A stretch of 64,000 nt of DNA from Clostridiales bacterium (GTDB taxonomy: Bacteria > Bacillota > Clostridia > Saccharofermentanales > Saccharofermentanaceae): contig JAFSPU010000007.1 of NCBI GenBank assembly GCA_017451265.1, forward strand, positions 183,281 to 247,280. Reading direction: 5' to 3'. Made by a program: the position numbers and the translations under genes. Below, in pieces: positions 42,992 to 56,325 of this stretch. Within the stretch, counting starts at the first letter, position 1. The number at the start of each line of letters is the position of its first letter. The notes under the pieces were generated by a model that saw only the letters and a list, made by a program, of their open reading frames with translations, had not been told where the DNA came from and searched no databases.

Positions 42992-43792
42992 GTGCCAAGG
43001 GCGTTAATAGCATTATTTGCTTCTTTGAGTATATTTACCAATTCTGTTGCTTTCTTTACCGGAGGCAATGATAACGGCAGTGCGGGGAATATTAACGGAA
43101 CGACTATAGTCATCACACTGTTTGTAAGTGATGTTGAATACGGATGGGATGTTAAGACTTATGATGATGTCCAAAGGATCGATACCGTTAACGAGTATCT
43201 TTCCATGGCAGGAGATTATCTTGAAGATCAGGTGAGCGGTTACGGTGGCGATGCTGTCTTTATCACTGATTTCATAACGAATAAAGATCTTGCATATTAT
43301 ATCCGGGTCAACCGTAACATGGAGAATGCGGAACTTGACGGTGATTACGGGGCTAATGAAGAAGCCTTGTGGATCAACATAGATGAGCAGATTGATGTTG
43401 ATGCATTAAAGGCAAAGTATCAGGCAGATAATGCGGTGTTCCTCGCGGTGTTTAATACTGATGTGACTAATCCTGCTATTACTTGTACACGTAACTGGTA
43501 TCCCGGAATAGAGAGTGATAATGAGATAGTATTCCTGTACTATATCGATTACGGGCAGGTTAATCCTCCTGCGGTTTATGCGCACGAGATCCTGCATACA
43601 TTCTCTGCGCCCGATCTTTATGCGGCAGATCCGGATTACGGGATAACATCAAGGAATCTGTCCGGTCTGCAGGATAAGTATCCTAATGACATCATGCTTA
43701 CCTGTTCGGATTTAAGCACCGGAGAATATGTATATGATCGCATAACCAACGACATTACCGAGGTTACGGCATCCTATATCGGACTTATCTGA
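42992..43792 (+). CDS. Exported putative zinc metallopeptidase
   Basis: A 266-residue protein starting at GTG 42992 (GTGAGG upstream). A short hydrophobic N-terminus (ALIALFASLSIFTNSVAFF) serves as signal or anchor. The zinc motif HEILH is at residues 198-202, in VYAHEILHTFSAPDLY; the Asp or Tyr further on may be the third ligand. I do not recognise a closer family. Its end overlaps the convergent diguanylate cyclase gene by 8 bases. With the two previous genes it forms a set of three exported hydrolase-like proteins. Confidence 0.7.
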   Translation: MPRALIALFASLSIFTNSVAFFTGGNDNGSAGNINGTTIVITLFVSDVEYGWDVKTYDDVQRIDTVNEYLSMAGDYLEDQVSGYGGDAVFITDFITNKDLAYYIRVNRNMENAELDGDYGANEEALWINIDEQIDVDALKAKYQADNAVFLAVFNTDVTNPAITCTRNWYPGIESDNEIVFLYYIDYGQVNPPAVYAHEILHTFSAPDLYAADPDYGITSRNLSGLQDKYPNDIMLTCSDLSTGEYVYDRITNDITEVTASYIGLI

Positions 43793-46064: not shown

Positions 46065-46655
46065 ATGCTTCGTTATATTCTTATGATGTATGCCACGCTC
46101 ATACCGGTGATATTTGCCGGAATACTTGTAATGCTGTGGTGCAAGCTGCCGATACTGAAGCCTCTGGCACGCCCCATCGATAACGGAAAGAACTTTACCG
46201 ACGGCAGAAGGATATTCGGTGATAACAAGACCTGGAAAGGACTTCTGGGTTACGTCATCTTTAACATCATCTTCGCTGTGATCTGGGGCTTTGTCTGTAA
46301 GAATACATCCTTAGGCGAATACAATTTCTTCTATCAGAATCATGAGAATACTTTGGCCTTTAATCTTCTGATCGGCTTTCTGCTGGGACTTGGGTACGCG
46401 CTGTTCGAGCTTCCTAACAGCTTCCTTAAAAGAAGGCTGGACATCACTCCCGGAAAGACCGTTTCGGGCGTAAGCAAAGTGTTCTTTGTTTTCCTTGATC
46501 AGGCGGATTCCATCTTCGGCGTGGCGCTCGTAGTATGGCTTTTCTATCCCCTCGGAATCCTGCTTTATCTTGCATATGTGCTCGTAGGAGCCGTCACTCA
46601 CATCTTGATCAATATGATGCTGTACTTCATGCATCTTAGAAAAAACATGGTATAA
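46065..46655 (+). CDS. CDP-archaeol synthase-like (CarS/DUF46) membrane protein
   Basis: A 196-residue membrane protein with about five helices of the CarS family, which in archaea attaches CDP to unsaturated archaetidic acid. Matching blocks are IFGDNKTWKGLLGYVIF (family FGxxKTWxG), FELPNSFLKRRLDITPGKT and FFVFLDQADSIFG (the DQxD motif). It is unlike the bacterial CdsA signature. Bacterial members exist and their substrate has mostly not been tested; it may use an ordinary phosphatidic acid. It is the first of eight closely spaced genes on this strand that mostly encode lipid enzymes. AGGGAGG precedes the start. Confidence 0.85.
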   Translation: MLRYILMMYATLIPVIFAGILVMLWCKLPILKPLARPIDNGKNFTDGRRIFGDNKTWKGLLGYVIFNIIFAVIWGFVCKNTSLGEYNFFYQNHENTLAFNLLIGFLLGLGYALFELPNSFLKRRLDITPGKTVSGVSKVFFVFLDQADSIFGVALVVWLFYPLGILLYLAYVLVGAVTHILINMMLYFMHLRKNMV

Positions 46656-46664
46656 GGAACGGAT

Positions 46665-49166
46665 ATGATAACCAGACTGGACAGCACCGGCAGCGATAAC
46701 GGCAAGCTCGGTAACAAGGGAAGATTCCTGCTTTTGATGAAGCAGAACGGGTTTAATGTGCCCGGCGGTTTTGTTCTTGACAGCGACACTTACGATGAGA
46801 CTGTGAAGGGAAGCCTGCAGCAAAGGATAGAAACGGAACTTGCCGCGCTTACGCCGGAAAATATAAAGCAGACTGGTGAGCGGCTGAAGGCGCTTTTCGA
46901 TGAGGTGACTTTGCCTGAGGACGTAAGTCGTGAGATAAGTGGGCTCCTTAAGCCCGACACCCTATACGCGGTAAGAAGCAGCGGCACCAAGGAGGACCTC
47001 GATGAGTTCTCCTTTGCGGGGCAGTATCAGACTTTCCTTAACACGCCCGCAAAGGACGTGGAGGCCAAGGTGATCGAGTGCTACCGCTCCATGTTCGGCG
47101 AGACTATCCTAAGCTACCTTGTAAACCGCAGGATAGACACGGCTGACCTCAAGATGGCGGTGGTGGTGCAGGAGATGGTTCCTTCCGAGGTAAGCGGCAT
47201 CTGCTTCACGATCGACCCCGTCACGGGTGACGACAAGACCATGCTCGTTGAGGTCTCGGAGGGCCTGGGCGAAGACATCGTAAGCGGCAAGACTGCTCCC
47301 GAGCAGTACCGGTACAACTGGTACGAGAACATCGAGAAGGACCGCGCCGCAAGTAACAGGCTCATTCCTGCCGTGAAGCTCAGTGAGTATGCGCGTGTGT
47401 TCTCTGGGATTCAGCAGCAGTTCGGCTACCCGTGTGACATCGAGTTTGCGCTGGCGGACGGGGAGCTTTATATCCTTCAGAGCAGAAGGATAACCAAGCT
47501 TAACTACTCCGGTATCAACGACGTGTGGACTACCGCGGACTTCAAGGACGGCGGCGTTTCTGCCAATGTCTGCACGCCTTATATGTGGAGCCTTTATGAG
47601 TATATCTGGGAGTATTCCTTAAGGAGCTTTATCGTGGATAATAAGCTTCTGCGTGATGATGAGCTGCCGAAGAAACTCGGTCAGATGTACTACGGCAGAT
47701 GCTACTGGAATCTGTCTGCGGTTAAGAAGACGATGGAGCAGATCGTCGGTTATAAGGAAAGAGAATTCGATAACGAGTACGGCATCGTAGGTGATTACGA
47801 GGGAGACGGCAAGGTCACGGGAGCAACGCCCAAGGTGCTGTTTCACATGATCCCGATAATCATAAAGCAGAAGCAGCTTCTGGATGACAGGCGTAAGAAT
47901 TCCGAGCGCTATAAGCAGGAACTGCTGGACCTGTATTACGGCTACAAGGATAAGCTTGATAACGGGAAGATAGAGGATATAACGAAGGAATTCGTCAAGA
48001 TCACGCATGAGACTTACTTAAGAAGTGAGACAACTTATTTCCATCAGATCTTCATTAATACGATCCACCAGTCGCTTTATAAAGACAGTCTTCTTAAGTA
48101 TGTATCGGAGAGCGAGTATCTGTCTTTGCTCGGAAGCATAGATAATATCTCGCACCTGCTGCCTTTCTACGACATGTGGGATATAACAAGAAAGATAAGG
48201 GCGGATGAGGATGTTTATAAGTTCTGGACTGAGAAATCCGCTGATGAAATCGAAAAGCTTATTTCAGAAGATAAGTATGAGATGCCGCTTGTCCGTAAGC
48301 TTATAGATGATTACGGTTACCATTCCGATAAGGAGCTGGATATCACATATCCGTGCTACTACGAAGAGCCTCAGGTTATGGTATCCATGATAAAAGACAT
48401 GGTGCTGCTGGATGATTCTTTCTCACCTAAAGAGGACAAGGAAAGAGGAACGGCTGTATATGAGAAGATCCTTAAGGACCTCGAGGGGAAAGTGTCTTCT
48501 TCCAAGCATAAGAAGATCACTCAGAAGGTCGCAGGCATGAGGAAGATGCTTTGGTGGAGAGAGGAGTTCCGTGACGTCTCCACCAGGTTCTACTACATGC
48601 TTCGTATGTACACGCTTGAATATGCGAAGAAACTCGTAGCTGACGGCGTGCTTGAAAGGGTTGAAGATGTGTGGTTCCTGAAGGTCGGAGACCTGTGGGA
48701 TTACATAGACGGTAAGAAAACGAAGGCTGATCTTAATGACCTTCTGGTTAAGAATAAGTTCTACTACAACGCATACCGCAATTACATCAGCGATAACGAG
48801 ATAGGCCATAACTTCAAGGTAATCCCGGATGCTGAAGGAAAGAATATGATCAAGGGCTTAGGCGCCAATAACGGTAAGATCACGGGAATCGCGAGGGTGA
48901 TCGAGGATTTCACTCAGATCGAAAGGCTGCAGCAGGGAGATATACTGGTAACGAGGTTTACCGATACCGGATGGACCCCCAAGTTCGCGATACTTTCAGG
49001 CATCGTAACAGAATACGGCGGAATCCTCTGCCACGCGGCCATCGTTTCCAGAGAATACGGTATTCCGGCCATCGTCTGCTGCAAGGATGCCATGAGTAAA
49101 ATACGTGACGGACAGATCATAACGATCGACGGAAGTTCCGGCGCAGTTGCTATCTCGGAGGGATAA
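46665..49166 (+). CDS. PEP-synthase/rifampin-phosphotransferase-like dikinase (first copy)
   Basis: An 833-residue protein. Residues about 1-280 are the ATP-grasp, PPDK_N-type domain (LGNKGRFLLLMKQNGFNVPG, LYAVRSSGTKEDL, CDIEFALADGELYILQSRRI). A 450-residue middle domain has no clear match. The C-terminal swivelling phosphohistidine domain has GGILCHAAIVSREYGIPAIV with His790. The PEP/pyruvate barrel of real PEP synthase is missing, so the order is that of rifampin phosphotransferase, where the middle domain binds the acceptor. The acceptor here is unknown; the lipid genes on both sides suggest a lipid or lipid precursor. Gap of 9 bases to the upstream gene. Confidence 0.85.
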   Translation: MITRLDSTGSDNGKLGNKGRFLLLMKQNGFNVPGGFVLDSDTYDETVKGSLQQRIETELAALTPENIKQTGERLKALFDEVTLPEDVSREISGLLKPDTLYAVRSSGTKEDLDEFSFAGQYQTFLNTPAKDVEAKVIECYRSMFGETILSYLVNRRIDTADLKMAVVVQEMVPSEVSGICFTIDPVTGDDKTMLVEVSEGLGEDIVSGKTAPEQYRYNWYENIEKDRAASNRLIPAVKLSEYARVFSGIQQQFGYPCDIEFALADGELYILQSRRITKLNYSGINDVWTTADFKDGGVSANVCTPYMWSLYEYIWEYSLRSFIVDNKLLRDDELPKKLGQMYYGRCYWNLSAVKKTMEQIVGYKEREFDNEYGIVGDYEGDGKVTGATPKVLFHMIPIIIKQKQLLDDRRKNSERYKQELLDLYYGYKDKLDNGKIEDITKEFVKITHETYLRSETTYFHQIFINTIHQSLYKDSLLKYVSESEYLSLLGSIDNISHLLPFYDMWDITRKIRADEDVYKFWTEKSADEIEKLISEDKYEMPLVRKLIDDYGYHSDKELDITYPCYYEEPQVMVSMIKDMVLLDDSFSPKEDKERGTAVYEKILKDLEGKVSSSKHKKITQKVAGMRKMLWWREEFRDVSTRFYYMLRMYTLEYAKKLVADGVLERVEDVWFLKVGDLWDYIDGKKTKADLNDLLVKNKFYYNAYRNYISDNEIGHNFKVIPDAEGKNMIKGLGANNGKITGIARVIEDFTQIERLQQGDILVTRFTDTGWTPKFAILSGIVTEYGGILCHAAIVSREYGIPAIVCCKDAMSKIRDGQIITIDGSSGAVAISEG

Positions 49167-49169
49167 AAC

Positions 49170-49781
49170 ATGATCGTAGGTAAGTGGAACAAGTCAGTTA
49201 TATTGACCTATGCGGGCCTGCTTCTGGCGGTGCTCGGTATCTTCCTTGCTTTCACTGCAGAGAAGATTACATACTCATTCTGCTGCCTCATGGTGGCCGG
49301 TATCTGCGATCTTTTTGACGGCATGGTGGCCAGACGCTGCAAGAGAACTGAAGAGGAGAAGATGTTCGGGATTGAGCTGGATTCACTGGTAGATGTGGTG
49401 AGCTTCATTGCGCTGCCTGTATGCATTTTCATTGCCCTCGGGTTTACTTCCGTGTGGCACCTGATCATCTACCTTGTGTACGCGCTGTTCGGAGTGGCGA
49501 GGCTTGCGTATTTTAATATCGCTACCGCCGACAGTGAGAAGGCGGTTAAGTATTATATCGGTCTGCCCGTAACTTATACGGCACTGATATTTCCGCTGCT
49601 TTATCTTCTGAGCGCAGTGTTCACTGATGCCGTTTTCGTGCCTGTATTCACATGCGGAATTGTTGTTGTTTCCGTTCTTGAGATAGTTAAGATTAAAGTC
49701 CCTAAGCCGAAGGGAATCTGGTACGGCATCTTCGGTATTATGGCGATCGGAATGCTTGTTATCTATCTGGCGGTGCTCTGA
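49170..49781 (+). CDS. CDP-alcohol phosphatidyltransferase (PssA-like)
   Basis: A 203-residue membrane enzyme that swaps CMP of a CDP-lipid for an alcohol, here most likely serine because a decarboxylase follows. The signature is D50-G51-xx-A54-R55, then G67, D71 and D75 in CKRTEEEKMFGIELDSLVD. There are 11 residues between AR and G, three more than in the classic pattern, a form I know from clostridial members. Five to six helices follow. The archaetidylserine synthase branch shares this fold. Spacing of 3 bases to the gene before. Confidence 0.88.
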   Translation: MIVGKWNKSVILTYAGLLLAVLGIFLAFTAEKITYSFCCLMVAGICDLFDGMVARRCKRTEEEKMFGIELDSLVDVVSFIALPVCIFIALGFTSVWHLIIYLVYALFGVARLAYFNIATADSEKAVKYYIGLPVTYTALIFPLLYLLSAVFTDAVFVPVFTCGIVVVSVLEIVKIKVPKPKGIWYGIFGIMAIGMLVIYLAVL

Positions 49782-49786
49782 AACTT

Positions 49787-50641
49787 ATGAAGATCTACGA
49801 CAGAGCGCAAGGCAGATACGAACAGATAGAGCAGTACGGTGCAGGTAAACTGGAGTTCCTGTATAACAATCCTGCGGGCCGTCTTCTGCTTTGGCTTGCT
49901 GTTTCGCCGTTGGTGTCGAATATATACAGATTCAAAAACTCCGGGAAAAGTTCGGTTAAGGTTATCCCCGAGTATATCGAGAATCACAAGATAGACATGA
50001 GTGATTATGAGGATAAGGAATACGAATCATTTAACGACTTCTTTATAAGAAAGCTTAAGCCCGGCAAGCGCCCTGTGGATATGAGCCCTGAAGCGCTCAT
50101 CGCACCTGCGGATTCCAAGCTGCTTGTTTATAAGATCGGCACTGATACGCGCATGACGATCAAGGGCAGAGAATATACCGTAAGTGAGATCTTAGGGGAT
50201 GATAAGTACGCGCAGGAATTTGGTAACGGATATGCGCTGGTGTTCAGGCTGACCGTCGACGACTACCACAGATACTGTTTCCCTGACAGCGGCAGCGTTT
50301 TAAGCAGCAGGCATATTAAAGGGAAGCTTCATACCGTAAGCCCCATTTCCAAAGATCATAAGATCTACCATGAGAATACGCGTAACGTCAGCATACTTAA
50401 GACCGATAACTTCGGTGTTATCGCTTATATCGAAGTGGGTGCCATGCTCGTGGGAAGGATCGTGGATGAAGGAAAGACGCACTTTGCCAAGGGTGAAGAG
50501 AAAGGGCATTTCGAGCCCGGCGGCTCCACGGTGGTGCTCCTCGTTAACGGCATTGAAATTGACGAAGATATTATGAGGGAGAGTGCCGAAGGTACCGAGA
50601 CCAAAGTAAGATACGGAGAGAAGGTAGGACAGAAGAGATGA
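49787..50641 (+). CDS. psd: Phosphatidylserine decarboxylase
   Basis: A 284-residue pyruvoyl enzyme that turns phosphatidylserine-type lipids into the ethanolamine form. YESFNDFFIRKLKPGKRPVD and IAPADSKLLVY are family blocks, VDDYHRYCFPDSG holds the catalytic His, and the self-cleavage site is FEPGGSTVVLL with Ser247 as the future pyruvoyl. Length matches the proenzyme. It is downstream of the CDP-alcohol transferase by 5 bases and overlaps the UbiA-like gene by 4 bases (ATGA). Confidence 0.93.
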   Translation: MKIYDRAQGRYEQIEQYGAGKLEFLYNNPAGRLLLWLAVSPLVSNIYRFKNSGKSSVKVIPEYIENHKIDMSDYEDKEYESFNDFFIRKLKPGKRPVDMSPEALIAPADSKLLVYKIGTDTRMTIKGREYTVSEILGDDKYAQEFGNGYALVFRLTVDDYHRYCFPDSGSVLSSRHIKGKLHTVSPISKDHKIYHENTRNVSILKTDNFGVIAYIEVGAMLVGRIVDEGKTHFAKGEEKGHFEPGGSTVVLLVNGIEIDEDIMRESAEGTETKVRYGEKVGQKR

Positions 50642-51546
50642 TCAAGCGCCTTCGTGTGTATTTTAAAGAGCGTTACCCGATTATCCCCAGACTCATTCTG
50701 GGAGTGATAGTATTCCTGGAGATACACTTCATAATCCTGCTTAATATGGGAGTTACCAAGGATCAGTTCAGGATCGGTATACAGGAGGCTGTCGGAGCTT
50801 TCACGGTGTTCGCTTTCCTGCTGTGGCTCAGAGTTGCCGATGACCTTAAGGATTTCGAGACGGATAAGAGACTGTTCCCGGACAGGCCCCTGCCCAGCGG
50901 ACGCGTGTACAAGAAGGACGTTATGATCGCCTGCGTGCTCGTGCAGGCTATTGCGGTGGCGCTGAATGTGATCTTCATGAGAGATAACCTGTGGGCCTTC
51001 GTGATCCTGTATATCTACGGCTACCTTATGAGTAAGTGGTTCTTCCGCAAAAAGAAGATACAGCCGAGCCTGCCGCTCGCACTTATTACGCATAACCCGG
51101 TACAGGCGATCATCAATCTTTATATCATATCGTTCACTGTTATTAAGTATGATCTGGAGCCTATTACACTGACTAATATCATGGCTCTGTGGACGCTGTA
51201 TTTCCCCGCGCTTATCTGGGAGGTGTCCCGTAAGATCAAAGCTCCCAAGGACGAGAACGACTACACCACTTATTCCAAGCTGTTCGGCTACAAGAAGTCG
51301 ACGAGGTTCGTGCTGATACTGACCATTATGGACATCATCACCAACTTCATCCTGGTGTGGAACCTTAACAAGATATCCGTCTGCGTGCTGGCACTGCTCG
51401 TGTCCTGGATGACCTGGAAGTTTATCCAGTTTATGAAAGATCCCGAGAGGTTCGTACTGGTAACTAAAGTGGAGATCTACACATATCTTCAGGAAACCAC
51501 GATGCTGCTGACCATTGCGGCGTTCCTGCTGTTCGGAAAGGTATAA
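50638..51546 (+). CDS. UbiA-family prenyltransferase-like membrane protein
   Basis: A 302-residue protein with about eight to nine helices. The first Asp-rich motif is DDLKDFETD at residues 68-76, equal to NDxxDxxxD with Asp first, followed by LFPDRPLPSGRV, which is characteristic of the superfamily. The second motif region is IWEVSRKIKAPKDENDYTTY, a diverged form. UbiA enzymes prenylate an acceptor with magnesium; in archaea the DGGGP synthase joins a second prenyl group to glycerol phosphate. The substrate here is unknown. It overlaps psd and abuts the next gene without a gap, which ties it to phospholipid synthesis. Confidence 0.85.
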   Translation: MIKRLRVYFKERYPIIPRLILGVIVFLEIHFIILLNMGVTKDQFRIGIQEAVGAFTVFAFLLWLRVADDLKDFETDKRLFPDRPLPSGRVYKKDVMIACVLVQAIAVALNVIFMRDNLWAFVILYIYGYLMSKWFFRKKKIQPSLPLALITHNPVQAIINLYIISFTVIKYDLEPITLTNIMALWTLYFPALIWEVSRKIKAPKDENDYTTYSKLFGYKKSTRFVLILTIMDIITNFILVWNLNKISVCVLALLVSWMTWKFIQFMKDPERFVLVTKVEIYTYLQETTMLLTIAAFLLFGKV

Positions 51547-53799
51547 ATGTACGGGGCCAAGATCGACAACCTGATAAAGCTTAAGGAGAACGGATTTAAT
51601 GTTCCGGCCTTTTGCGTGCTGCCTTATGAAGAGACTGTTAAAGACGATCTTAAGATCACATTCCCGTCAGAGGGCGCGCTGTTCGCTGTAAGAAGCTCTG
51701 CCAATGTCGAAGACGGCAGTGAATTAAGTTTTGCAGGTCAGTTCGAGACTTTCCTTAATGTCCCGCGTGATGAAGTCCCTTCTAAGATCAGAAGCATTAT
51801 CGCGTCTGTTAACAGCGGGAACGTGAACGCCTATGCTGACGGCCTTAAGGATGTAAAGATGAATGTCATCGTCCAGGATATGGTGGACTCGGATATATCC
51901 GGCGTCCTCTTCACGGCCAATCCGCAGGGAATCTTAAACGAGAGCGTTATCACGGTAGGCCGCGGGCTCGGTGAGGGCGTCGTAAGTGAGCGCGTTGATA
52001 CCACTTCTTACTACTACAACCTGACCGACAGAGTCTGTTATTACGAAGGTAAGGAAGATCTGTTAAGCCAGGTTCTTACGGATGAACTGATCGGGATTTC
52101 TGAGAAGATTAAGACAATATTCGGCGAGTATCTGGACATTGAGTTCGCGGTGAAGGGGGACGAGATCTTTATCCTTCAGGTGCGTCCCATAACGACATTA
52201 AAGACTGACGATCCGCTCATCATGGACAACAGCAATATCGTCGAAAGCTATCCCGGGATCTCTCTGCCGCTCACCACTTCATTCGTAGACCTGGTCTACA
52301 GCGGCGTGTTCAGGGGAGTATGCAGAAGGATCCTTAAGAACGATAAGGAATTAAGTAAGCATGACGATGTATTCCTTCACATGACAGGTCACGTCAACGG
52401 CCGCGTTTACTACAAAATCAGCAACTGGTATACGGTTCTTAAGTTCCTGCCTTTTAACAAGAAGATCATCCCTGTGTGGCAGGAGATGATGGGCGTGCGT
52501 AACAAGTCATACAACGACGATGATGTGAACCTTAACTTTTTCGTGCGCACGGCAACTTACATCAACTCTCTTTACGAGCTCCTGGCCGCGCCGAAGAATA
52601 TGAAGAAGCTTAATGAGGACTTCATTAAGATAAATGATGATTTCTATTCTAAATTTTCACCTTCGCTCACGCCCGCGCAGCTGATTGACTTGTTTAACGA
52701 CATCAAGGTTAAGCTTTTTGACTGCTGGGACGTGACGCTTGTAAACGACATGTACGCATTCATCTTCACGGGACTTCTTAAGTCACGCCTTAAGAAGAAA
52801 TACATCAAGTCCGACAGGGAGATAAACGACTACATAAGCGGCATCTCGGACATCGAGAGTATGAAGCCCGTAATTGAGATCATGAGGATCGCGCTTCTTA
52901 AGGCATCCGGCAGTGAAGAATATGAGAAAGAAAAGGCTGAATACATAAGAAGATTCGGTGACCGTAACCTGGAGGAACTTAAGCTGGAGAGCAGGACGTT
53001 CAGAAGTAATCCCGAGCTTTTTGACAGGAAGACCGATGAATATATTAAAGATCCTAATCTGGCACAGCGTTATGCCGGCCTTAAGGCGGATAAGACTAAG
53101 GAAGATAAGTATGACGTCCTAACAAGGTCTTATGTAAAGAAGGCGTCACTCGGTATCTATAACCGTGAGATCTCCAGACTTAACAGGAGCCGTATTTACG
53201 GCATAGTGAGACTTATCATTGATACGCTTGCGGTAAAGTATGCGCAGCAGGAGATCTTAAGCGAAGCATCCGACATCTACTACCTGGAGATCAGCGAAGT
53301 TCTTAAGCTTGCTTCCGAACCCTCTGATATGCGCATGGTAATAGAAGACCGTAAGGACAGATACCGTCTGTTCCGCGAGCTTCCTGCGTATACCAGACTT
53401 ATCTTTGCTGATCATGAATTCGATAAGAATCACGTGTGCATCAACTCTTATAAAAAGCAGGCATCAGGGGACGCGCTTCAGGGCGTTCCGTGCTCAGGCG
53501 GCACAGCTGAGGGTGAGACGCTTGTTATAAGTGACATCAATAACATCGGTGACACCAGGGACAAGATACTTATAACCAGAATGACCGACCCCGGCTGGGT
53601 GTTCCTGCTTACTTCGGCAAAGGGCGTTATCTCCGAGAAGGGCTCGCTGCTTTCGCACACGGCGATCATCTCACGTGAACTCGGGATACCTTCTGTCGTA
53701 GGCGTGAAAGACCTGCTGCTTACGGTTAAAGACGGCGATTATATACGCATGAACGGTGACACGGGAAAGATAGATATCATCAGGAGAGGCAGCAAATAA
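51547..53799 (+). CDS. PEP-synthase/rifampin-phosphotransferase-like dikinase (second copy)
   Basis: A 750-residue paralog of the dikinase four genes upstream. It has a slightly shorter ATP-grasp domain (LIKLKENGFNVPAFCVLPYE, LFAVRSSANVEDGSELSFAG, LDIEFAVKGDEIFILQVRPI), its own middle domain of about 400 residues, and the phosphohistidine domain KGSLLSHTAIISRELGIPSV with His704. The middle parts of the two proteins do not look alike, so they should act on different acceptors. No PEP-binding barrel is present. It starts directly after the UbiA-like stop and overlaps the GNAT start by one base (TAATG). Confidence 0.85.
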   Translation: MYGAKIDNLIKLKENGFNVPAFCVLPYEETVKDDLKITFPSEGALFAVRSSANVEDGSELSFAGQFETFLNVPRDEVPSKIRSIIASVNSGNVNAYADGLKDVKMNVIVQDMVDSDISGVLFTANPQGILNESVITVGRGLGEGVVSERVDTTSYYYNLTDRVCYYEGKEDLLSQVLTDELIGISEKIKTIFGEYLDIEFAVKGDEIFILQVRPITTLKTDDPLIMDNSNIVESYPGISLPLTTSFVDLVYSGVFRGVCRRILKNDKELSKHDDVFLHMTGHVNGRVYYKISNWYTVLKFLPFNKKIIPVWQEMMGVRNKSYNDDDVNLNFFVRTATYINSLYELLAAPKNMKKLNEDFIKINDDFYSKFSPSLTPAQLIDLFNDIKVKLFDCWDVTLVNDMYAFIFTGLLKSRLKKKYIKSDREINDYISGISDIESMKPVIEIMRIALLKASGSEEYEKEKAEYIRRFGDRNLEELKLESRTFRSNPELFDRKTDEYIKDPNLAQRYAGLKADKTKEDKYDVLTRSYVKKASLGIYNREISRLNRSRIYGIVRLIIDTLAVKYAQQEILSEASDIYYLEISEVLKLASEPSDMRMVIEDRKDRYRLFRELPAYTRLIFADHEFDKNHVCINSYKKQASGDALQGVPCSGGTAEGETLVISDINNIGDTRDKILITRMTDPGWVFLLTSAKGVISEKGSLLSHTAIISRELGIPSVVGVKDLLLTVKDGDYIRMNGDTGKIDIIRRGSK

Positions 53800-54866
53800 T
53801 GAAGCTAATTAAGTTCGATAAAGAGGAAAGATATATCAAGGCTTTCACTAGGCTTCCGAAGCTACTGTACAGCAGGGAAGACAACATGGAAGATCCTGGT
53901 ACGATGAGGAAGATACTTCTGGGCGAGCACCCGTTAAGCGGCTGCTTCAGCCTGGACAAGTTTCTCGTGCTTGATGACTCGGACAAACCGCTGGGCCGCT
54001 TTTGCATCACGTCTTATGAAGGTGATGACACGGCTTACTTCGGCTTCTTTGAGTGTGTTGATGATGCCGATGCCGCGCGTTTTCTTTTCGAGAAGGCGTA
54101 TGAGTTCTGCAAGGAGCGTGGGTTTAAGAAGATCCTGGGCCCCGTGGATGCATCTTTCTGGATCAAGTATAGGCTTAAGATCAATAAGTTCGACAAGCCT
54201 TACACGGGCGAGCCTTACAACAAGGACTACTATCTGAAGCTGTTTACGGATAACGGGTTTGAGGTGGCGGAGCATTATACTTCTCACGCTTTCAGAGCCA
54301 TCGACGAGTCTTATGCCAACGATGTCTATGAGCAGCGTTTTAAGACTTTCACTGACGCAGGCTATGAGATCAGAAGCCCTAAGGAGGAAGAGTTTTCTTC
54401 TGCTATAGATGACGTGTACCGCCTGGTAACCGAGCTGTACAGTGACTTTCCCGTGTTCAAGAATGTTAAGCAGGAAGACTTCCGTGAAGTGTTCATGAGC
54501 TATAAGCAGATAATGAACATGAGCATGACCAAGCTCGCTTACTATGAAGGCAAAGCTGTGGGCTTCTATGTGTCGATACCTGACTACGGCAACCTCGTCT
54601 ATCACACGGGCAACCCGCTCAACATAATGAAGATCCTGAGTACCAAGAAAAAGCCTTCGCGCTACATCATGCTTTACATGGGCGTGGACCAGAGCCACAG
54701 GGGCCTTGGCAAGGCTCTCGTGTATTCCATCATGAAGGAGCTCATGAGCAATAAGCTGCCGAGTATCGGAGCGCTCATGAGAGACGGCAAGAAGACTCAG
54801 GAATATGCCGCAGGTGAGATAACCGATGTTTATGAATATGTGCTGCTTTCAAGGGGGATACAGTAA
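53799..54866 (+). CDS. GNAT-fold N-acyltransferase (YghO/BcerS-like)
   Basis: A 355-residue soluble protein with two GNAT-like halves. ILGPVDASFWIKYRL, then KPYTGEPYNKDYYLKLFTDN, matches the YghO-type family (GPxxxS...GF...P...YY..L). The C-terminal half has the acyl-CoA loop MGVDQSHRGLGKALV. Members of this family include the Caulobacter bacterial ceramide synthase BcerS, which adds a fatty acyl group to an amine. An N-acyl transfer to an aminolipid is thus plausible, with the acyl group supplied by the following ligase. The first Met overlaps the dikinase stop. Confidence 0.7.
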   Translation: MKLIKFDKEERYIKAFTRLPKLLYSREDNMEDPGTMRKILLGEHPLSGCFSLDKFLVLDDSDKPLGRFCITSYEGDDTAYFGFFECVDDADAARFLFEKAYEFCKERGFKKILGPVDASFWIKYRLKINKFDKPYTGEPYNKDYYLKLFTDNGFEVAEHYTSHAFRAIDESYANDVYEQRFKTFTDAGYEIRSPKEEEFSSAIDDVYRLVTELYSDFPVFKNVKQEDFREVFMSYKQIMNMSMTKLAYYEGKAVGFYVSIPDYGNLVYHTGNPLNIMKILSTKKKPSRYIMLYMGVDQSHRGLGKALVYSIMKELMSNKLPSIGALMRDGKKTQEYAAGEITDVYEYVLLSRGIQ

Positions 54867-54867
54867 C

Positions 54868-56325
54868 ATGAATGAGCTGGAAAAGATCTTAAGAGCCGAC
54901 TATGAGAAGTGGAAGGATAATGAGTACCTTCACGAGATGGTTGACGGTAAGTACAAGGCTGTCACTTTCGGCGAGTTTATCGAGAAGGTAAACTACCTGG
55001 CGTCATACCTGCTGTCCCGCGGGTATAAGGGCAAGAATATTGGCATCTACAGCCCCAACTCCATTGATTGGATGATCGCGGACGTGGCTGTCATGAACTA
55101 TATCGGCATCGCCGTCGGCCTTTCCAAGGACTGGGTGGGAGATAACCTGGACTACGCCATAGGCAAGTGCGATATCTCGTGCCTGCTTTACAGCAAGGTA
55201 AACGAGACCCACGTAGACGGCGTCAGGGGCAAATACCCGGAAGTGGAGTTCATCTGCATTGAGGACAGCTTCGCAGGCATGCTTGAAGAGGGCAAGAAGC
55301 TTTGCGATGGGCTTTTTAAGCTCGAGCCTGCCGATGAGGACGCGCCTGTTAAGATCGTGTTCACGAGCGGCTCCACATCATTTCCTAAGGCTGTCATGCT
55401 CTCTGTGAAAAACATCTTCTCAAGTTACGAGGCCCTGGCAAGGCGCGTGCCTTTTAACGAGCACGATGTCTGCTACCTTTTCCTCCCGCTTAACCACACT
55501 TACGGCTCCATCTTCAACTTCCTGTACTCGCTTGTGTTCGGCTTTAACATTTACCTTACGGGTGACATCAAGAACATGGCGCAGGAGATGATGCTCGTGA
55601 AGCCGACCGTGTTCTGCGCGGTGCCTCTTGTTTACACAAGGTTCCTGGAGGGAGCCAAGGCCATGAATGTTCCGCTTAAGGCGCTCCTCGGAGGCGAGCT
55701 CAAGTATGCGTTTATCGGAGGCTCGGTGCTGCCGCACAGCTTGAGGCAGGCTTATATCGACGCGGGGATCAACCTCATGAATGCGTATGCGCTGTCAGAG
55801 ACGTCCTCGGGCTTCTCCATCGATTACCCTGATGTCACTGACCTCGACAGCGCGGGCACTTTGCTCGAGTATGTTGATGCCAAGGTGAAGGACCCGGATG
55901 TCGAAGGCTACGGCGAGCTTGCCATCAAGGGCCCCAATGTTTTCGGCGGCTACTATAATGACCCCGAGGCCACGAAGCGGGCTTTCGATGAGGACGGTTA
56001 CTACCTCACGGGCGACATCGGCAAGATCAGCGGGGGCATCGTTTATGTGCGCGGCAGGAAGGATACCATGATAGTCTTGAGTAACGGCGAGAACGTGTCC
56101 TCAGCGCGCATCGCCGATAAGGTCAAGGCTGCGGACCCGAGGATCGCTTCTGTTAAGGCCTTCGTGCGTGACGGCGAGCTTACATGCAATATCTTCGTCA
56201 AGGCAGGCGAGAGCACCGGCGGTGACTGGCAGGCAGTGATAGACCGTGTGAACGAGGACCTGTCGAAGTACGAGAAAATAAGAAAGTTCAGCGTGGCGGA
56301 CGTAAGCACGCTTATTAAAGGCTGA
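54868..56325 (+). CDS. AMP-dependent acyl ligase (acyl-CoA/acyl-AMP synthetase family)
   Basis: A 485-residue adenylate-forming enzyme. ATP is bound by IVFTSGSTSFPKAVMLS (motif A3), then LFLPLNHTYGSIFNFLYSL, MNAYALSETSSGF (A5), YLTGDIGKISGGIVYVRGRK (A7/A8). The catalytic Lys of the C-terminal domain may be in EKIRKFSV. It probably activates a fatty acid as acyl-AMP or acyl-CoA for the neighbouring GNAT-like acyltransferase. It is the last gene of the run, and its start lies one base after the previous stop. Confidence 0.88.
   Translation: MNELEKILRADYEKWKDNEYLHEMVDGKYKAVTFGEFIEKVNYLASYLLSRGYKGKNIGIYSPNSIDWMIADVAVMNYIGIAVGLSKDWVGDNLDYAIGKCDISCLLYSKVNETHVDGVRGKYPEVEFICIEDSFAGMLEEGKKLCDGLFKLEPADEDAPVKIVFTSGSTSFPKAVMLSVKNIFSSYEALARRVPFNEHDVCYLFLPLNHTYGSIFNFLYSLVFGFNIYLTGDIKNMAQEMMLVKPTVFCAVPLVYTRFLEGAKAMNVPLKALLGGELKYAFIGGSVLPHSLRQAYIDAGINLMNAYALSETSSGFSIDYPDVTDLDSAGTLLEYVDAKVKDPDVEGYGELAIKGPNVFGGYYNDPEATKRAFDEDGYYLTGDIGKISGGIVYVRGRKDTMIVLSNGENVSSARIADKVKAADPRIASVKAFVRDGELTCNIFVKAGESTGGDWQAVIDRVNEDLSKYEKIRKFSVADVSTLIKG

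Follow-up and report, generated by a model that had tools for sequence, protein, structure and literature searches.

Several described pathways resemble parts of the locus reported here. In archaea, the UbiA-type digeranylgeranylglyceryl phosphate (DGGGP) synthase, the CDP-archaeol synthase CarS, archaetidylserine synthase, and a decarboxylase act in series to make archaetidylethanolamine. In plant phytol salvage, the kinases VTE5 and VTE6 feed UbiA-type prenyltransferases. For the phosphosphingolipids of Caulobacter, excerpts of two papers (PMC9386255 and PMC11324152) list spt, an ACP, an acyl synthetase, CC_1154, and CC_1159-1161 as the genes involved. Here, we analyzed a 64,000-nucleotide stretch (the window; positions 183,281 to 247,280 of contig JAFSPU010000007.1, assembly GCA_017451265.1) from a Clostridiales bacterium, whose plus strand holds eight open reading frames at 46065-56325: carS, dik1, pssA, psd, ubiA, dik2, gnat, and lig. 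They form a conserved operon of gut bacteria, most likely for lipid synthesis, that has not been described as far as our literature search shows, since titles and abstract openings revealed no such operon or lipid. Its product is probably a membrane lipid that bears phosphoethanolamine on an unusual backbone of partly isoprenoid nature.

Conservation and organization of the operon

A scan with UbiA as the query yielded 188 relatives, the best 80 of which, mostly from metagenome-assembled genomes (MAGs), were taken as named loci; their labels include Saccharofermentans, Butyrivibrio, Lachnospiraceae, Ruminococcaceae, Saccharibacteria, and others. Forty-eight of them offer at least 5.3 kb of upstream and at least 7 kb of downstream sequence (the full-flank set). 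In this set, carS, ubiA, dik2, and gnat were present in 48/48 loci, dik1 and psd in 47, lig in 43, and pssA in 40, and all eight genes were found together in 34, counting L073, where a pssA-like gene sits 8.4 kb downstream of ubiA, and L121, where pssA and psd come last. Because 46/48 loci keep the gene order of the window for the genes present, the grouping cannot be attributed to chance. Mean identity to the window protein is highest for UbiA (77%), which was also the search query, and lies between 53 and 67% for the other seven.

Rearranged and partial operons argue for two modules, one for the head group (module A: kinase, carS, pssA, and psd) and a core (module B: ubiA, dik2, gnat, and lig). 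As in L121, pssA and psd stand at the operon end in L132, both are missing from the operon of L079, and only ubiA-dik2-gnat-lig is visible in the stretch available for L112 (2.4 kb upstream). Within the core, dik2 adjoins the 3' end of ubiA in nearly all loci and is more than 60 bases away only in L064 and L095. In L043 and L064, which have lost psd, a 184-residue open frame with a lipoprotein-like start lies between ubiA and dik2.

The operon is rare, since the UbiA model NF010118 matched only 1 of 398 genomes sampled phylum-wide, the window's own. UbiA is present in 41 of the 115 genomes of the family, and no match to it was found in 72,556 plasmid records. Named-strain carriers include Butyrivibrio sp. 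XPD2006 and INlla14 and Lachnospiraceae P6A3 and AC2028, all presumably cultured rumen isolates. One record (L057) is titled Fibrobacter succinogenes, a doubtful label given that the PssA and Psd trees group its operon with records from Clostridia.

The coordinates of the eight genes are given in Table 1. The gaps between them, in operon order, are 9, 3, 5, -4, 0, -1, and 1 base, and the start of lig (54868) was picked by a purine-rich stretch 5' of the codon. No consensus promoter stands out (the scan gave 12, versus 14.2 ± 3.7 in shuffles). The source MAG is 69.5% complete and has one UbiA. Upstream of the operon, a 266-residue open frame (42992-43792) has no Pfam match at E 0.01.

Table 1. 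Genes of the operon in the window and their predicted products
Gene	Position	Strand	Predicted product or role
carS	46065-46655	+	CDP-lipid synthase, CarS-like family
dik1	46665-49166	+	Dikinase (ATP-binding domain, C-terminal phosphohistidine domain); proposed to phosphorylate a lipid alcohol for CarS
pssA	49170-49781	+	CDP-alcohol phosphatidyltransferase; proposed CDP-lipid:serine transferase
psd	49787-50641	+	Phosphatidylserine decarboxylase family
ubiA	50638-51546	+	UbiA-superfamily prenyltransferase; operon core
dik2	51547-53799	+	Second dikinase; proposed prenol or prenyl-phosphate kinase
gnat	53799-54866	+	Tandem-GNAT acyltransferase, YghO relative
lig	54868-56325	+	AMP-forming acyl-CoA/acyl-ACP ligase family

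The initial annotation had described eight tightly packed genes as an operon in a Firmicute. The packing was confirmed (gaps of -4 to +9 bases, all on the plus strand), its family names hold by Pfam, with GNAT slightly under its Pfam cut-off, and the gene set recurs in other genomes. Carriers do include Clostridia, but the host range was drawn too narrowly, as three MAGs labelled Saccharibacteria also carry the operon.

Kinase exchange and the head-group branch

CarS matches PF01864 with 67.9 bits (gathering cut-off, 22), its sole PDB match is the CDP-archaeol synthase 5guf (E 7e-6), and a DQxD motif is present in 68/68 named homologues; against the CDP-archaeol synthase equivalog NF003114, it scores 81.7 bits, under the cut-off of 148. 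Both dik1 and dik2 carry the Pfam domains PPDK_N and PEP-utilizers, and neither has a Pfam match to the phosphoenolpyruvate (PEP)/pyruvate-binding barrel of PEP synthase. The best PDB matches of both (about 240 bits for dik1) are 5hv2/5fbs, deposited as 'phosphoenolpyruvate synthase,' which we take to be the Listeria rifampin phosphotransferase (RPH). The phosphohistidine motif is retained in 66/68 dik1 and 71/73 dik2 named homologues. Three further patterns were set aside: dik1 'QxR' (28/68), dik2 'ATP Arg' (56/73), and CarS 'KRRL' (62/68).

Among the 73 carS-bearing named loci, dik1 is present in 70 and missing in L123, L124, and L128. In these three, a gene for a DgkA-family kinase of 116 to 120 residues lies immediately 5' of carS (L123:4739-5089, L124:5368-5730, and L128:5326-5682), and the proteins match PF01219 with 82.7, 81.6, and 71.9 bits, respectively. 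A DgkA gene beside carS was therefore found in 3/3 carS-bearing loci lacking dik1 versus 0/70 with it. In a six-frame search, a profile of the three DgkA proteins found no match in any other locus or in the window; the same profile matched 0/89 dik1-bearing loci once 20 extra loci, some from already sampled genomes, were counted. Since DgkA stands where dik1 is missing, we reasoned that the lipid phosphate used by CarS is most likely the product of dik1.

In the CarS tree, the three DgkA-type loci form a single clade (99/98). In the UbiA and Psd trees, L123 falls among dik1-type operons, away from L124 and L128, and 28 and 26 of 500 shuffles reach as few changes. This disagreement implies either two or more separate exchanges or a joint transfer of the kinase gene and carS as one cassette.

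PssA and Psd match PF01066 (CDP-OH_P_transf, 51.6 bits) and PF02666 (179.6 bits). PssA scores slightly higher with the archaetidylserine synthase model NF038087 than with the bacterial TIGR00473 (80.9 versus 77.5 bits, both under cut-off). Its CDP-alcohol motif, DGxxAR...G...D...D, has a spacer of 11 after AR in 61/61 sequences (60 named loci and the window), and five ordinary PssA proteins have 12; the canonical spacer is 8. A self-cleavage motif of the GGST/LGST type is present in 76/76 named Psd homologues.

These genes were compared with the housekeeping set in 18 genomes of the genus, sorted by UbiA into 10 carriers and 8 noncarriers. CdsA was found in 17/18, the exception being the incomplete genome of the window, and strong CarS matches (61 to 77 bits) occurred in 10/10 carriers and 0/8 noncarriers; weaker CarS matches in the genus, some above 22 bits, fell on the same gene as CdsA. 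A second pssA-psd pair is present in two carriers, the window's genome and G062, and in three noncarriers. Its PssA is 34 to 36% and its Psd 42 to 46% identical to the operon versions, and the two types split with 100/100 support in both trees. In the window's genome, LPG_synthase_TM, pssA, and psd lie in a row (L133:8686-11231, on contig C1), distinct from the operon copies.

Could the operon simply make ordinary phosphatidylethanolamine (PE) from scavenged diacylglycerol? In that case, dik1 would be a diacylglycerol kinase and CarS an extra CdsA, with UbiA and the remaining proteins co-regulated for some other product. The DgkA substitution would suit diacylglycerol. Furthermore, in 8/10 genus carriers no Psd was found besides the operon copy, so the operon could make ordinary PE too, and 8/48 full-flank operons keep psd without pssA, so PssA may not be specific to a particular backbone. 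Against this stand the presence of dik2 and gnat with ubiA and carS in 48/48 operons, a CdsA that is already there, and the separate pssA-psd pair in 2/10 carriers, and we consider such a function quite unlikely. A dedicated head-group module comprising the kinase, CarS, PssA, and Psd is well supported, and we hold it with good confidence.

UbiA, the acyl branch, and the archaeal-lipid question

UbiA exceeds its Pfam cut-off (38.1 versus 34.2 bits), and in a fold comparison, its nearest relative was archaeal DGGGP synthase. The single window sequence matched PDB entry 6m31 at E 0.011, and an alignment profile found no PDB match up to E 10. The first aspartate-rich motif, [ND]DxxDxxxD, is present in 78/78 named loci; the second, of the 6m31 type, is missing in 79/79 UbiA proteins including that of the window, with WExxRKIxxPxxE in its place. 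With DGGGP synthase models, UbiA scored under the cut-offs (NF009522, 25.4 of 353 bits; NF009521, 19.1 of 296 bits).

Fifty UbiA members matched nine model families. No quinone model was among them, a heme o synthase model was weakly matched by 3/50, and (bacterio)chlorophyll synthase models drew weak matches from 20 and 7 members. A quinone or haem UbiA was ruled out on these scores. In favor of a pathway for a prenylated quinone, haem, or natural product with no tie to membrane lipids, the UbiA superfamily and the dikinase family (RPH and PigC) do contain such enzymes, and there are the chlorophyll synthase matches. We regard it as extremely improbable, given the quinone and haem results and the fact that CarS, PssA, and Psd jointly constitute a lipid head-group branch.

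A true archaeal lipid, archaetidylethanolamine, would agree with the structural affinity of UbiA, the sole PDB match of CarS, and the slightly higher archaetidylserine synthase score of PssA. The search for geranylgeranylglyceryl phosphate (GGGP) synthase was extended beyond the window: PF01884 (cut-off, 23.9) was passed in 0/34 genomes, several of them incomplete MAGs, with four partial matches at 19 to 20 bits, versus 5/14 control genomes. The lack of a GGGP synthase above cut-off and the loss of the second UbiA motif make an archaeal lipid very unlikely; in addition, the kinases and the acyl arm, foreign to the archaeal route, would be left unexplained.

The archaeal-type lipid of the initial annotation was not supported. 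Other parts of its interpretation were, alongside the conserved operon: a CarS-type synthase in addition to the CdsA of the housekeeping set, a head-group branch of the serine/ethanolamine type represented by PssA- and Psd-family genes, and a UbiA that is nearest to DGGGP synthase and without a quinone-model match. Neither UbiA nor CarS fell in a quinone or haem branch, judged for UbiA by profile scores and fold comparison. The N-acylation that it had raised as a possibility would fit the relationship of GNAT to YghO, described below.

The second dikinase, dik2, matches PF01326 and PF00391 and scores 789 bits with NF004882 (cut-off, 850). GNAT reached 19.4 bits with Acetyltransf_1, under the cut-off of 20.7, and 51 bits with YghO in a one-sequence search; its alignment profile retrieved one antibody chain from the PDB (E 0.22), which was dismissed as a chance match. 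N-acyl-ethanolamine lipids were reportedly observed in Butyrivibrio in old reports, which our literature search did not find. YghO is grouped with CC_1154-type ceramide N-acyltransferases in an excerpt of one paper. The E. coli K-12 record (L138:3044-4216) describes yghO as a putative DNA-binding transcriptional regulator, at odds with that listing. The last gene, lig, matches PF00501 (AMP-binding) with 195.2 bits.

Salvage, the proposed pathway, and known systems

Three loci with all eight genes (L106, L113, and L122) belong to MAGs of 0.7 to 1.1 Mb labelled Saccharibacteria. The complete operon at L113:3429-13741 (G521:C2:82145-92457) lies on a 187-kb contig with similar GC throughout that also bears rpoB, tuf, fusA, and the main ribosomal gene cluster. 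There, rpsE and rplO, as far as they align, are less than 60 bases apart, leaving no space for uL30, which bacteria of the candidate phyla radiation (CPR) are not known to have. This contig check covered L113; L106 and L122 sit on short contigs.

Neither a trans-prenyl synthase (PF00348) nor a ketoacyl synthase (PF00109) was found in the three Saccharibacteria carriers, although MAGs can be incomplete. Across all 1.08 Mb of G521, the E. coli proteins FabH, FabD, FabF, AcpP, PlsX, and PlsC matched nothing at E 1e-3, nor did Dxs, Dxr, IspH, and IspA. UppS, CdsA, MraY, and a FabG-like reductase were matched at this threshold, and the DgkA proteins found a weak relative. UppS needs a prenyl starter, so an outside prenyl source is required in any case. 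These three MAGs, with eight operon genes but no match for a ketoacyl or trans-prenyl synthase, point to salvage. According to an excerpt of PMC6031116, another Saccharibacterium makes no fatty acids and has no route to isopentenyl diphosphate.

Salvage would also fit a pathway in which one dikinase phosphorylates a prenol and the other the resulting prenyl phosphate, as VTE5 and VTE6 do, to make a diphosphate donor from dietary phytol or other prenols; the DGGGP-synthase-like UbiA would load a lysophosphatidate-type acceptor, and CarS would take the UbiA product directly. The isoprenoid-gene searches without a match in Saccharibacteria carriers speak for it, as does the fact that Gram-positive DgkA-family enzymes are undecaprenol kinases. 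Moreover, all 32 of the 80 record titles that mention an animal name herbivores by a by-eye count (28 ruminants or horse and 4 'Lapin'); with no control group for habitat, this count is a hint toward phytol and not evidence. Serial kinases are disfavored by a kinase type that follows carS rather than ubiA and sits in module A, by L112 with its core genes and no dik1 in view, and by a single PF00348 synthase in 11/16 carriers outside the genus and 9/10 within it. We therefore rate this pathway as unlikely.

We favor a dedicated, horizontally mobile phospholipid operon of two modules. In module B, UbiA would attach a prenyl chain, while a fatty acyl chain would come from the GNAT related to YghO together with the acyl ligase, probably through an amide, in an order that we infer, to give the lipid alcohol for module A; dik2 probably provides for UbiA by phosphorylating a prenol, or a prenyl phosphate, obtained by salvage. 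In module A, this alcohol would be phosphorylated by dik1, or by the DgkA-type kinase in some operons, converted by CarS to its CDP derivative, coupled by PssA to serine, and decarboxylated by Psd, yielding a phosphoethanolamine lipid distinct from ordinary PE. The logic would be that of the Caulobacter phosphosphingolipid route, with a prenyltransferase replacing serine palmitoyltransferase. We give the scheme as a whole about an even chance.

Several observations weigh against it, besides the sole Psd and the pssA-less operons described above. The DgkA-type CarS clade has long branches (2.63 for L123), and attraction is possible. CarS, PssA, Psd, UbiA, and dik2 all fall below their best equivalog cut-offs. 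Some chlorophyll synthase models were matched as often as DGGGP synthase models by the 50 UbiA members, and with its second motif abnormal, even prenyl transfer by UbiA is a prediction, as are the lipid product and the substrates of every step. PF00348 is likewise without a match in carriers G523, G526, and G000, and PF00109 in G516, G525, and G526; since UppS needs a starter too, the lack of PF00348 is not specific to the operon.

A bolder and more tentative version, which we think improbable, has a prenol scavenged from plants or neighbors (phytol being the obvious candidate in herbivore guts) joined with a scavenged fatty acid into a half-isoprenoid, half-acyl, ceramide-like phosphoethanolamine lipid, the operon being passed between Clostridia and Saccharibacteria. 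If scavenging operates in this way, a host-dependent CPR bacterium could make its own phospholipid without fatty-acid or trans-prenyl synthase, with a bearing on membrane supply in the CPR. If the favored scheme holds, bacterial membrane lipids would gain a class not yet described, whose isoprenoid portion comes from a relative of DGGGP synthase in bacteria that lack the archaeal pathway, which bears on the lipid divide. RPH-kind dikinases would gain a new role as lipid-alcohol or prenol kinases, where the NCBIfam models matched here name PEP synthase.

With the archaeal pathway, the operon shares a UbiA whose closest kin is DGGGP synthase, activation by a CarS-like enzyme, and PssA- and Psd-type steps, here in one operon. 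Unlike that pathway, it occurs in genomes with GGGP synthase under cut-off (34/34), its UbiA has lost motif 2, and it adds two dikinases, a GNAT, and an acyl ligase. With the ordinary PE branch of CdsA, PssA, and Psd, it has the activation and head-group reaction types in common, but its CarS-type synthase is linked to a kinase, its PssA and Psd form a separate lineage, and the branch is tied to UbiA. Like RPH, PigC, and PEP synthase, the dikinases have N-terminal ATP-binding and C-terminal phosphohistidine domains flanking a middle domain and keep the phosphohistidine motif, but they passed no listed equivalog model and are paired in a lipid operon. Two kinases supplying a UbiA enzyme may recall VTE5/VTE6; the kinases are unrelated, however, and the acceptor here would be a lipid instead of an aromatic head. 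The Caulobacter phosphosphingolipid region likewise brings together an acyl synthetase, a YghO-related acyltransferase, a lipid-alcohol kinase, a CdsA-like enzyme, and a CDP-alcohol transferase. In the operon, a search limited to its eight genes found no serine palmitoyltransferase: UbiA takes that place, the kinase is a dikinase or DgkA, and PssA and Psd provide a serine/ethanolamine head group.
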